Origin: Advenella kashmirensis WT001
Lineage (GTDB): Bacteria > Pseudomonadota > Gammaproteobacteria > Burkholderiales > Burkholderiaceae_B
NCBI RefSeq assembly: GCF_000219915.2
Contig: NC_017964.1
Location: forward strand, 1,798,001 to 1,862,000
Direction: 5' to 3'
Length of the DNA stretch: 64,000 nucleotides
Shown here: piece by piece, positions 50,208 to 56,625 of the stretch
Position numbering within the stretch: the stretch's first letter is position 1
Layout: each line of letters starts with the position of its first letter
Notes under the pieces: model-generated
Told to the model about the DNA's origin: nothing
What the model saw: only the letters and a program-made list of their open reading frames with translations
Database searches by the model: none
Position numbers and translations under genes: made by a program

Positions 50208-51200
50208 ATGATCGGGGGCATGAAACCCGCCTCCATCTTCTCGATTCCCAGCGACCTGGGCGTTCAGGAACGCCTGCAGCGCAGGCACATGCTTGCCCGG
50301 CTCGGGCTGGCCTGGCTGGTCATGATGCAGGTCATGATGTTCGCCTTCCCGGGCTATCTGCGTGCCAGCTACGTTGATGCGGAAACGGTCGATACGCTGG
50401 ATACAGCAATTATCGTCATGAACTGGTGCAGTCTGCTTCTGACCGTGCCGGTGCTGCTTTATTGCGCCTGGCCCATCTGGCGGGGTTTTGTCAGCCGGGA
50501 TCCACAGGATACCCATCAACAATCCATGAATTGGCCCATTGGCCTGGGTATTGTGGTGGCGTTTATTCCCAGCGCCATCGCAACCTTTCGCCAATCCGGC
50601 GACGTCTATTTCGAATCCATTGCCATGTTCGTCGCTTTCGTGCTTACGGCGCGCTATCTGGCGCTTGCTGCCAGGCAGTCGGGCGGCACGGCATTCGATC
50701 AGCTTTTCGATCAGGAGTTCAGATTGCTGGCCGATACAGCCGACCGGATCGGGCTGTATTTCGTGAGTATACAAATTGCGCTCTCCCTGGTTTCTGCGCT
50801 CGTCTGGTATTTCTATATTGATGCCGAGCACGCCTTGCCAGTATTGGTTGCGCTGTTTGTCATGAGTTGTCCCTGCGCCATGGCGATGGCAGTTCCTTCT
50901 GCACAGGCAGCGGCGCGCGCCATTGTTCTTGGTAGTCCGCCACTTTGCCAGCAAGCACTTGCTGGCTTGCGTGCGCAAACCGTTAGCGTCGCTCGCCGTT
51001 CTCTTTACGGCTCGTTGTTGTGGCATCTGCTTATGATTCCATTTGCCATGATTGGCCTGGTGCAGCCATGGCTTGCAGCCATAACCATGCTGGTTTCATC
51101 GCTGGCAGTCGCGTTCTATGCCTGGCATTTCTATAAGAACTACACCTTCGGCAAGCCCGTCGGCTCCGGCACTATCGCGGTTAACTCGTCGTCGGCCTAG
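50208..51200 (+). CDS. CcoI-like copper P-type ATPase membrane core lacking all catalytic domains
   Basis: The 330-residue protein has eight predicted membrane segments. They align in order with those of CcoI/FixI copper ATPases: LGLAWLVMMQVMMFAF (TM1), WCSLLLTVPVLLYCAWPIW (TM2), WPIGLGIVVAFIPSAIA (TM3), YFESIAMFVAFVLTARYLALAAR (TM4), the ADRIGLYFV entry to TM5, the copper motif SCPCAMAMAVPSAQAAA (CPC 221-223) in TM6, and PWLAAITMLVSSLAV with MxxSS in TM8. The N-terminal metal-binding domain, the actuator domain between TM4 and TM5 (TGE), and the phosphorylation/ATP domain between TM6 and TM7 (DKTGT) are all absent. The TM7 YN pair is replaced by WH. There is no frameshift. ccoS follows, so a role in cbb3 copper supply or assembly without ATP hydrolysis is likely. 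A later ATG (50220) is possible. Confidence 0.85.
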   Translation: MIGGMKPASIFSIPSDLGVQERLQRRHMLARLGLAWLVMMQVMMFAFPGYLRASYVDAETVDTLDTAIIVMNWCSLLLTVPVLLYCAWPIWRGFVSRDPQDTHQQSMNWPIGLGIVVAFIPSAIATFRQSGDVYFESIAMFVAFVLTARYLALAARQSGGTAFDQLFDQEFRLLADTADRIGLYFVSIQIALSLVSALVWYFYIDAEHALPVLVALFVMSCPCAMAMAVPSAQAAARAIVLGSPPLCQQALAGLRAQTVSVARRSLYGSLLWHLLMIPFAMIGLVQPWLAAITMLVSSLAVAFYAWHFYKNYTFGKPVGSGTIAVNSSSA

Positions 51201-51207
51201 TACTGCC

Positions 51208-51414
51208 ATGGACGTATTCTTTCTTCTGGTTTTCCTGGCTTTTCTGTTCGTCATGAGTATCGGCGGCGTGCTGTACTGGGCAGTGATGTCCGGTCAGTTC
51301 GAAGACAGCGACACCAACGCAAGCGTGATATTGCAAGATGATGATGCTGTTATCGGATCGTCCGATAGCGGGCGCGACGGCGTCGCCGTCCGCGCTTCTT
51401 CTGCCAAATCGTAG
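51208..51414 (+). CDS. ccoS: cbb3 oxidase maturation protein CcoS
   Basis: The 68-residue protein has one N-terminal membrane segment (MDVFFLLVFLAFLFVMSIGGVLYWA) and the CcoS signature WAVMSGQFEDSDTNASVILQDDD. It is needed for cofactor insertion into cbb3-type cytochrome oxidase. It begins seven bases after the CcoI-like gene and precedes ccoN. The C-terminal 20 residues are a variable polar tail. Confidence 0.88.
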   Translation: MDVFFLLVFLAFLFVMSIGGVLYWAVMSGQFEDSDTNASVILQDDDAVIGSSDSGRDGVAVRASSAKS

Positions 51415-51555: not shown

Positions 51556-51614
51556 ATCGCTGCGTTCGGATCTATTTAAGATTGAACAATAGGGTTTTTT
51601 TTAGGGGAAATTTT

Positions 51615-53084
51615 ATGCGTACCCAGAATGCGCGCTCCGCAGACGCGGAGAACTTCAATTACACAGTCGTGCGCCAGTTCACCATCATGACCGTTGTGTG
51701 GGGAATTGTTGGCATGTTTGTGGGTGTCTACATTGCAGCACAACTGGTCTGGCCGGAACTGAACGTCGTGGACTGGCTCAGTTACGGTCGTCTGCGCCCG
51801 CTGCACACCAATGCGGTTATTTTTGCCTTTGGTGGTAGTGCACTGTTTGCGACCTCCTATTACGTCGTCCAGCGCACCTGTCAGACACGCCTGTTCTGTG
51901 GGCCACTGGCCTCGTTTACTTTCTGGGGCTGGCAACTGGTCATTGTGCCGCTGCGATCACACTGCCGGCCGGCTACACCACCAGTAAAGAATATGCCGAG
52001 CTTGAATGGCCTATCGACATTTTGATTACGCTGGTCTGGGTCGCCTACGCGATCGTCTTTTTCGGGACGGTGGCCAAACGCAAGATGAAGCACATTTATG
52101 TGGCCAACTGGTTCTACGGCTCGTTCATCCTGACGATCGCCATTCTGCATATCTTCAACAACATCGAGTTGCCCTATAGCTGGTTCAACTCCTATTCCGC
52201 TTACGCGGGCGCACAGGACGCCATGGTGCAATGGTGTACGGCCATAACGCGGTGGGTTTTTTCCTTACCACCAGTTTCCTGGGCATGATGTATTACTTCG
52301 TGCCAAAACAGGCCAATCGTCCGATCTATTCCTATCGCCTGTCCATTGTTCACTTCTGGGCGCTGGCCTTTACCTATATGTGGGCCGGCCCGCATCATTT
52401 GCTCTACACCTCATTGCCTGACTGGACGCAAAGCCTGGGCATGGCGTTCTCCCTGATTCTGCTGGCGCCTTCCTGGGGTGGCATGATCAACGGCATCATG
52501 ACCATGTCCGGCGCGTGGCACAAGCTGCGTACCGATCCTATTTTGAAGTTTCTGGTTGTGGCGCTGTCGTTCTATGGCATGTCTACCTTTGAAGGTTCAA
52601 TGATGTCCATCCGGACCGTGAATGCGCTGTCCCACTACACCGAATGGACTGTCGCACATGTGCACTCGGGTGCGCTGGGCTGGGTCGCATGATTACTTTT
52701 GGCAGCTTGTATTACATGATTCCTCGTTTGTACGGACGCGAGTCCATGTATAGCAATTCCTTGATTGAGGCCCATTTTTGGATGGCCACCATCGGCGTCG
52801 TGCTGTATATCGCATCAATGTGGATTGCCGGTGTGATGGAAGGGCTGATGTGGCGTTCGACAGAAGCCGACGGTACGCTGACCTACGCTTTTGTTCAGGC
52901 GCTGGCATCTAAATATGTGCTGTATATCATCCGCATTGTCGGTGGGATGTGTTTCCTGAGTGGCGTGCTGGTGATGTTCTACAACATGATCATGACCATC
53001 AAGGGAATCAAGGGTGTCAACCCGCAAGTGCCTGATTTCGTCGGTCACGATGCCCGTATTGCTCAACCCGCTACTGCTGTTTAA
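51615..53084 (+). CDS. ccoN: cbb3-type cytochrome c oxidase subunit I (three one-base frameshifts)
   Basis: CcoN holds haem b and the haem b3-CuB site of the high-affinity terminal oxidase. ATG 51615 follows AGGGGAAA. Pieces in order are [18 protein letters not shown] (haem ligand His), [47 protein letters not shown] (CuB region), [15 protein letters not shown], and [22 protein letters not shown] with the haem histidines. The coding sequence is broken near 51947 (GTG CC to GTG GCC), near 52236 (TGG TG to TGG TGG) and near 52689 (GC ATG to GCN ATG), each by one missing base. Repaired length is about 490 residues, normal for CcoN. Confidence 0.93.
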
Positions 53085-54872: not shown

Positions 54873-56368
54873 ATGTCTGACAAGCAACCAGAGCCGTCTG
54901 CCAATCAGGATGTGCCTGCCTGGCAACCACCCAGGCTGGTCCCGGCGCAGGCCGCCTCCGCCGATGACAGCAGCACGCAGATCGAGGAGATTCGCGCAAA
55001 AATATATCCGCGCTCTGTAACCGGTGTGTTTGCCAAATGGCGGATCATTCTGGTGCTTGTCACGCAGGCGGTGTTCTATGGCTTGCCCTGGCTGCAATGG
55101 AATGGGCGCCAGGCGGTGTTATTCGATCTGGCAGAGCGCAAATTCTATATCTTCGGCATTGTGCTCTGGCCGCAGGATGTTTTTTATCTGGCCATCATCC
55201 TGATCATTTCGGCCTATGGGCTGTTCCTGTTTACTGCACTTGCCGGCCGGCTGTTTTGTGGGTATGCCTGTCCGCAAACGGTCTATACCGAAATTTTCAT
55301 GTGGATAGAGCGCAAGATCGAAGGTGATCGTGTTGCCCGTATCCGGCTCGATGAATCTCCAATGAGCTTGCGCAAGTTCAGGATAAAAGCCACCAAGCAT
55401 TTTTTATGGATTGTGGTGGCCTGGTGGACGGGCTCGACCTTTATTGGCTATTTTTCGCCTATTCGGGAACTGGGCGTTGAGCTCATCCATTTGGAACTGG
55501 GTTTTTGGCAGTGGTTCTGGATGATCTTTTATTCCTTTGCGACCTGGGGCAACGCCGGTTTCTTGCGGGAGTCCGTCTGTAAGTACATGTGCCCTATGCG
55601 CGCTTTCAAAGCGTGATGGTCGACAAGGATACATTTGTAGTGACTTATGACCGGATCCGCGGCGAGCCGCGCGGTCGTCGCTCCAAGAAAGTGATTCCCA
55701 GCCAGGCCGGCCTGGGCGATTGCGTTGACTGCACCATATGCGTACAAGTCTGTCCAACCGGAATCGACATCAGGGACGGTCTGCAGTATATGTGCATTGG
55801 CTGTGGCGCCTGTATTGACGCCTGTGACCAGGTGATGGACAAAATGAATTATCCGCGCGGACTGATTCGCTATACATCGGAAAGCGGTATGCTCGATGGG
55901 CTTGACAGCAAACAGGCCCGTCAGCGTTTGTTCAAGCCTCGTATTTATGTGTACATCGCACTGCTGAGCGTCTTCATTATCGGCCTGCTGATTTCGCTCT
56001 CGCTTCGCTCACCGTTAAGGGTTGATATCGTGCGTGACCGTGGCGTGCTTGGGCGAGAGATACCGGGTGGAATGATCGAGAATATCTATCGTATTCAGGT
56101 TATCAATATGTCGGAAAAAGATCAGAAATTTGTTCTTAAAGCCACCTCCAAAGAGATGCCGCAAGTCACGGTATTAGTCGGGGAAGACAATGAGCAACAG
56201 ATCGATGTGCCGGCTTTTTCCAACCAATGGGTTCCCATGGTCATTCGCGTGCCGGTACAGGGCTCGGCCAAGGGATTGCATCCATTGAGTCTGCATATTG
56301 AAAACACGGATAAGACCGATGGCGCATTATCGGCCCAACAGGAAACTACTTTTTTTGTCCCTAATTGA
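54873..56368 (+). CDS. ccoG: cbb3 oxidase maturation protein CcoG (RdxA/FixG; one-base frameshift)
   Basis: CcoG is a membrane Fe-S protein now thought to reduce copper for cbb3 assembly. Segments: RSVTGVFAKWRIILVLVTQAVFYGLPWLQWNGRQ, GRLFCGYACPQTVYTEIFMWIER, then FLRESVCKYMCPYARFQSVM, and two [4Fe-4S] motifs, GDCVDCTICVQVCPTGIDIR and MCIGCGACIDACDQVM. The C-terminal Ig-like periplasmic domain ends TTFFVPN. The frame shifts near 55594 (three C read, four needed in TGC CCC TAT). Repaired length is about 499 residues. Confidence 0.93.
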
Positions 56369-56382
56369 CAAGGAGCACAAGG

Positions 56383-56625
56383 ATGCAACTGCAGGAACGA
56401 GATAATGGACCGTGGTACCGGGAGCCTTGGCCGTGGCTGCTGATGGCCGGTCCTTTTGTGGCCATTGTCGGCTGCGTGATTACCATTGTTCTGGCATTCC
56501 AGAACAACCCCGACCGCGATGTACGACTGGATGCCCGCAAGCAGGGGCTGGTTGTGACGCGTGAAGGAACCGGGCCGCTGGTCCCGCATGCGCCGCCAAT
56601 CCATACCAACGTCAAGCGGGAGTAA
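56383..56625 (+). CDS. ccoH: short FixH/CcoH-like membrane protein
   Basis: ATG 56383 has AAGGAG upstream. The 80-residue protein starts with the CcoH-type entry RDNGPWYREPWPWLLMAGPFVAIVGCVITIVLAF (one membrane segment) and later has ARKQGLVV, a remnant of the usual YYKQGL motif. Typical CcoH/FixH is roughly twice as long with a beta-rich periplasmic domain, which is missing. It follows ccoG and probably helps cbb3 assembly. Confidence 0.75.
   Translation: MQLQERDNGPWYREPWPWLLMAGPFVAIVGCVITIVLAFQNNPDRDVRLDARKQGLVVTREGTGPLVPHAPPIHTNVKRE

Follow-up and report, generated by a model that had tools for sequence, protein, structure and literature searches.

A CcoI-like membrane core without ATPase domains at the cbb3 oxidase locus of Alcaligenaceae, a possible Cu(I) relay

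The window analysed here, a stretch of 64,000 nucleotides from Advenella kashmirensis WT001 (assembly GCF_000219915.2, contig NC_017964.1, positions 1,798,001 to 1,862,000), encodes beside the genes of a cbb3-type oxidase a small protein that corresponds to the membrane part of the copper ATPase CcoI (FixI, CopA2; a P1B-1 ATPase). Comparison with its relatives makes it almost certain that this protein, referred to below as the core, is a descendant of CcoI that was stripped of the whole ATP-driven machinery and retained in the cbb3 cluster under strong selection. Regarding its function, the sequences suggest that the core may be an ATPase-less intramembrane Cu(I) relay that loads the CuB site of the oxidase subunit CcoN, a reading to which, its CcoI descent included, we assign a probability of about 0.5.

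The membrane core and its missing domains

The core consists of eight membrane helices, with CPC and the proline of M4 kept, a Trp-His pair in M5 and MxxSS in M6. The helices of an AlphaFold2 model and an alignment to P1B structures, with rows spanning residues 17-321, account for all of the P1B helices MA, MB and M1-M6. The initial annotation, made from the sequence of the window alone, had described a CcoI-like, eight-segment core with CPC and MxxSS and had proposed structure prediction as a check; the predicted helices, which match the P1B membrane part, and a 112-row alignment (A2) agree with that description. On one point it is corrected: M5 carries Trp-His, not the usual Tyr-Asn pair. 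Alignment A2 comprises 98 of the best 120 of 599 matched homologues, 13 proteins from fetched loci and the window protein, and thus covers the best matches of a core query, with more distant members lying outside it. In databases, the homologues carry names such as 'P-type ATPase', 'hypothetical protein', 'membrane protein' and '(putative) copper transporting ATPase'.

With Pfam, the window protein matches just the end of E1-E2_ATPase PF00122 (profile positions 113-174 of 181; residues 176-236), a family matched by 112/112 members of A2 at E<=0.01, and the seven Pfam families matched by these members include no P-domain, HMA or PF12156 family. NCBIfam copper-ATPase models match the core far under their cut-offs. 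Against the copper ATPase structure 4bbj, identity is 26% by VIA-align and 17% in the Foldseek alignment; no other transporter family rose clearly over the helical background by VIA-align, although such an absence proves nothing. Full-length CcoIs of other families of the order are 31-46% identical to the core over about residues 18-170, and the core shares with CcoI/FixI the locus, the eight-helix membrane part, CPC, MxxSS and an MQ.MM motif in the first helix. CcoI/FixI differs in having the N-terminal metal-binding, actuator (A), phosphorylation (P) and nucleotide-binding (N) domains, the ATPase motifs and Tyr-Asn in M5, all of which the core lacks. The catalytic domains of CopA (CopA1; 3rfu/4bbj) and ATP7B are likewise absent from it.

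Alignment of the 112 cores with 14 full-length CcoIs showed that three blocks are missing, namely the N-terminus, the A domain and the P/N domain. The N-terminal stretch up to R25 measures 18-25 residues in the cores and 107-196 in 13 full CcoIs (the fourteenth, from locus L033, was left out of this measurement because its open reading frame (ORF) begins within the membrane part), the A-domain stretch R149-A178 measures 30-37 versus 134-138 residues, and the P/N stretch P230-L266 measures 35-40 versus 274-310, the latter two in all 14 full CcoIs. These lengths confirm the earlier observation that the N-terminal metal-binding, actuator and phosphorylation/ATP domains are gone, in frame, at three places. 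Neither DKTGT nor the CxxC of the N-terminal metal-binding domain occurs in any of the 112 cores; the bare strings TGE (12/112) and GDG (1/112) are taken as chance occurrences, because the domains to which they would belong are missing. By eye, in the alignment to full CcoIs, the stretch just ahead of M5 seems to retain the end of the P domain. No genome was seen in which just one or two of these blocks had been lost, in analyses that included no search aimed at such intermediates. Two cores of genus g27 (L176 of G285 and L177 of G267) have an M2-M3 linker about 30-40 residues longer, with no obvious A-domain motif.

The copper ligands are among the residues that do not vary in the core. M40, M43, C221, P222, C223, P230, H273, M294, S297 and S298 are invariant in 112/112 cores. 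Position 273 is His in every core, in contrast to Asn in 14/14 full CcoIs; position 272 is Trp in 107 and Phe in 5 of the 112 cores, versus Tyr in 13/14 full CcoIs; and position 268 is Gly in 106/112 cores, versus Trp in 14/14 full CcoIs. From this pattern, the site looks as if it had been remodelled once and then fixed. Such constancy bears on the proposal that the core is a copper-independent assembly scaffold for CcoN and CcoS, whose membrane part was kept for protein contacts alone. The position of the gene beside ccoS and ccoN and the conservation of many non-ligand residues would fit a scaffold, but the copper ligands CPC, H273, M294 and S298 never vary in the 112 rows, and we regard this explanation as distinctly unlikely.

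Distribution and descent in Alcaligenaceae

With a core called at a match of E<=1e-50, 184 of 268 Alcaligenaceae genomes, in 31 of 43 genera, carry one, and full CcoIs score under this threshold (best, 1.3e-48). On re-examination of the five weakest matches noted, G267, G285 and G130 were found to hold both core halves, interrupted in G130; in G114 the core is incomplete and in two pieces, and in G275 the match comprises the first 126 core positions at a contig end and is indistinguishable from a full CcoI. G114 and G275 are also the two of the 184 core genomes without a ccoN match. PF12156, the domain found at the N-terminus of full CcoI, occurs in 8/268 genomes and in none of the 184 core genomes. 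At its beginning, the G032 core resembles that of Taylorella equigenitalis P0064.

The ccoN model TIGR00780 is matched over its cut-off in 199/268 genomes, and ccoN at E<=1e-50 in 215. We defined a cbb3 set of 206 genomes, composed of 203 with ccoN at E<1e-120, G000 (with its frame-broken ccoN) and G079 and G243 (with ccoN cut by a contig end). In this set, 182 genomes have the core (180 by the threshold count, plus G000 and G079), 20 have a full CcoI, and in 4 the locus is truncated by a contig end (G143, G171, G204 and G206, where, judged from coordinates and locus lengths, the contig ends at or near ccoN/ccoS). The full CcoI was recognized by its ORF in G020, G021, G035, G154, G155, G182, G192, G193, G194, G196, G218, G221, G223, G229, G252 and G243, being partial in G252 and G243 and starting late in G020, and by a PF12156 match within 844-846 aa frames in G222, G224, G227 and G230.

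Beyond the family, a search of 399 genomes sampled from the order gave 106 matches at E<=1e-40, among which were 9 complete cores, all from Alcaligenaceae; no complete core was found outside this family in the sample. The other 97 genomes match the model in part (about residues 11-186), mostly in frames of at least 600 aa, with three shorter frames of 404-476 aa in G502, G433 and G368. A scan of genome contigs yielded at least 80 core loci, and those listed all come from genera that we take to be Alcaligenaceae or are titled Alcaligenaceae or beta proteobacterium. The homologue search proposed with the initial annotation, for a reduced protein with CPC and without DKTGT placed on a tree, recovered a family-wide protein.

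In an unrooted tree of the membrane part (33 cores, 14 full CcoIs, 299 columns), the full CcoIs form one group apart from the cores with 100% ultrafast bootstrap support, and in a ccoN tree, also unrooted, the ccoN genes of full-CcoI loci group together with support 93. This ccoN group includes L075 and L076, which were first labelled none_seen and later shown to have CcoI. Genus g27 contains core genomes together with G035, which has a full CcoI and is placed with the full CcoIs in both trees. These groupings led us to set aside independent origins of the core and suggest, from trees without a root, that the loss apparently occurred once in Alcaligenaceae.

Given the many broken genes of the window's genome, among them ccoN and ccoG at this very locus, the reduced protein might be suspected of being a pseudogene or a sequencing artefact. 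Ka/Ks values of 0.08-0.14 (15 pairs from six congeners), the near-constant linker lengths and the 184 matching genomes leave this explanation with practically no chance, and an artefactual or frameshift origin was rejected, given that the same reduced protein is found across Alcaligenaceae. The earlier view that the frameshifts seen elsewhere do not account for the reduction is upheld, the ORF itself being intact. Among the matches listed, stops fall within the matched stretch in G032, G245 and G131 only. In G130 (4.0 Mb), an interruption of about 1.07 kb separates M2 from M3 in the core gene (G130:C1:2212589-2214594; L175, L180); the ccoN match of this genome, too, is weaker and falls into two pieces, and the two genes may be decaying together.

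The core gene at the cbb3 locus

Features of the core gene and its surroundings are collected in the table. The gene may begin at position 50220 (326 aa), since methionine 5 is where the start of most relatives aligns.

Table. Positions in the window of the core gene, its copper motifs and neighbouring features
Feature	Position	Strand	Remarks
CcoI membrane core gene ('mini-CcoI')	50208..51200	+	330 aa; ATG at 50208, stop 51198-51200; single open frame
CPC copper motif, C221-P222-C223, helix M4	50868..50876	+	invariant in 112/112 cores and 14/14 full CcoIs
W272-H273, helix M5	51021..51026	+	in place of copper-ATPase Tyr-Asn; aligned to Tyr-Asn of 3rfu
MxxSS (M294, S297, S298), helix M6	51087..51101	+	invariant in 112/112 cores
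FNR/Anr-type box TTGATATAGATCAA	50171..50184	+	upstream of core gene; exact TTGATN4ATCAA match
FNR/Anr-type box TTGATATTTATCAA	51542..51555	+	upstream of ccoN; exact TTGATN4ATCAA match
ccoS (presumed)	51208..51414	+	68 aa ORF; congener copy used as blastp query for ccoS in other loci
ccoN	51582..53084	+	split into several frames; single 490 aa frame in congener G001

Among the matches listed, 100 of 101 genomes have the core gene just upstream of ccoN on one strand, the two being 257-678 bases apart (median 400); the sole exception is G257, in which the two genes are on different contigs, near contig ends. Most loci have the order ccoI-ccoS-ccoNOQP-ccoG, and the full CcoI sits at the same place as the core in most full-CcoI loci, being found after ccoP in G154, G155 and G218. 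These three loci (L172, L173 and L063, respectively) hold a divergent cbb3 cluster, with a ccoN only about 60% identical to that of the window type, and no TGE string was found in the G218 CcoI. The ORF that follows the core in the window is presumed to be ccoS from its position and the features we associate with CcoS.

The two boxes listed in the table are the only exact TTGATN4ATCAA matches in the window, against 0.10 expected. When 28 core loci were scanned from 400 bases ahead of the ORF to 60 bases into it, 23 showed an FNR box with no more than one mismatch (exact in 20), and none was detected in the other 5. Together with the linkage to ccoN, this supports the earlier statement that the core, with an FNR box ahead and ccoS behind, is kept with the oxidase genes. 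The boxes, and an fnr-like gene found at the cbb3 cluster, could also be read as signs that the core senses the copper state and informs a regulator about oxidase metallation. No signalling domain is common to the A2 members, however (1/112 gave a weak match to 'Sensor'), and we consider such a role very improbable.

Like ccoN, ccoG (54873-56368) is split into several frames in the window, and it is a single 498 aa frame in congener G001. The published report on the A. kashmirensis WT001 genome gives 578 genes with potential frameshifts (PMC3669393). The broken ccoN and ccoG fit this number, and the core gene itself is unbroken. Following ccoG, an 86 aa FixH/CcoH-like membrane ORF (56365-56625) was identified by eye; it is shorter than what we take to be the usual size of CcoH.

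Copper supply and the proposed role of the core

P-type ATPases couple via covalently linked domains, and a first question is whether the core could be energized in trans, with another protein, e.g. CopA, lending it the A and P/N domains. A copper ATPase over the TIGR01511 cut-off is indeed present in 30/30 genomes tested, 28 of which have the core. In G023, G032 and G248 (1.7-2.3 Mb), however, the TIGR01511 matches at E<=0.01 all come from one CopA-type protein (a frame of 718-732 aa) and from three stretches of the core that correspond to its three membrane blocks, leaving no candidate for a separate catalytic subunit. The short linkers left in the 112 cores and the covalent coupling of known P-type ATPases also argue against help in trans, which appears improbable; in the larger genomes, which have further full-length ATPases, a split catalytic subunit is no more than unlikely. 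A second full CcoI, which the initial annotation had envisaged as a partner and had suggested looking for elsewhere in the genome, was also rejected: the PF12156 type is found in 0/184 core genomes, and no type was found in G023, G032 or G248. A CcoI without PF12156 may exist elsewhere in the larger core genomes; several full-length copper ATPases are encoded in some of them. In the window genome, the CopA-type ATPase (G000:C1:3905834-3907411, L045) is a 542 aa frame without the N-terminal part, compared with 777-792 aa in congeners G001, G003, G007 and G009, and other P-type ATPase matches lie in short or split frames (C1:1481991-1483710 and C1:3383442-3384990).

SenC and PCuAC domains were detected in 16/16 genomes tested, and in G023, G032 and G248 a SenC or PCuAC match is found no more than about 2 kb from that of CopA, which fits CopA feeding these chaperones. 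The same neighbourhood occurs in the full-CcoI genome G035 and is absent from several larger core genomes. SenC and PCuAC share with the core the proposed working role of bringing Cu(I) to the oxidase; they are periplasmic, belong to other families and co-occur with it.

We outline the proposed relay as follows. CopA-type ATPases would pump copper across the membrane and SenC/PCuAC-type chaperones would collect it in the periplasm, from where the core could take Cu(I) into its CPC/His/Met site and hand it to the CuB site, contacting nascent CcoN and CcoS. With His in place of Asn, the copper site would be steadier and would suit holding and transfer rather than a pumping cycle. In evolutionary terms, a P-type ATPase lineage may have turned into an energy-free Cu(I) chaperone or insertase for CuB via loss of all cytosolic domains and the Asn-to-His change, a tentative step for which we put the odds a little below even.

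In Rhodobacter capsulatus, loss of CcoI is rescued neither by copper nor by extra CopA, which the authors call surprising, a CPC-site mutant is inactive, the N-terminal sites are important and not essential, and a CcoI-SenC fusion is functional (PMC8475189). Several points weigh against a relay. ATP-dependent Cu(I) transport has been demonstrated for this same CcoI and is taken as its function (PMC8475189). SenC and PCuAC do not discriminate, being found just as well in the four full-CcoI genomes tested. Contact between the core and CcoN is inferred from gene order only, and both the mechanism and the direction of copper flow are proposals drawn from sequence. Finally, counted along the alignment, core residues 107, 136, 152 and 179 are equivalent to M148, E189, E205 and D337 of 3rfu, and 272-273, 294 and 298 to Y688-N689, M717 and S721, residues whose roles we take to be entry, binding and exit. 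The cytosolic entry positions are largely kept in the cores (M at the M148 position in 111/112, E at E205 in 97/112 and D at D337 in 75/112), and thus conservation alone does not favour loading from the periplasm; full CcoIs also vary at these positions.

Retention of most of the translocation path, including the residues at the M148 and E189 positions, suits the main rival, a passive Cu(I) permease in which copper would move down its electrochemical gradient, inward at a negative-inside potential, and which would turn the core into an importer, not an exporter. Toxic copper leaking in through an ungated path would presumably be costly, the invariant His gained at the central site suggests tighter holding, and linkage to ccoN fits delivery better than general import. 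We consider a permease unlikely, and, between the passive channel and the CcoN assembly or copper-delivery factor raised by the initial annotation, copper delivery is favoured.

In proposed role, the core resembles the copper importer CcoA/CalT, a membrane protein moving copper for the CuB of cbb3; that protein, an MFS (major facilitator superfamily) member with MxxxM and HxxxM motifs, belongs to a different family (PMC5829832). We found no description of an ATPase-less CcoI core in the open-access full-text literature, which leaves out most subscription journals and all bioRxiv preprints, and within this scope the earlier remark that no protein of this kind had been described still stands. 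A survey of beta-proteobacterial copper proteins states that this ATPase category was not considered (PMC6769254), and the available parts of PMC10654040, PMC10903467, PMC7794356 and PMC12617631 contain nothing on the core.

CcoI is usually described as an ATP-driven exporter that feeds copper to the cbb3 oxidase. Alcaligenaceae provide a natural separating experiment, in which the engine of the pump is gone and the membrane copper site has been kept under strong selection at the oxidase locus. To our knowledge, the core would be the first P-type ATPase family to be conserved with no catalytic domain at all, and it would offer a compact system for studying how Cu(I) is coordinated by the P1B membrane part. 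If the core supports CuB insertion, the indispensable function of CcoI would be the local hand-over of copper, not transport; pumping would then be separable from, and not at the heart of, the role of CcoI in oxidase assembly.
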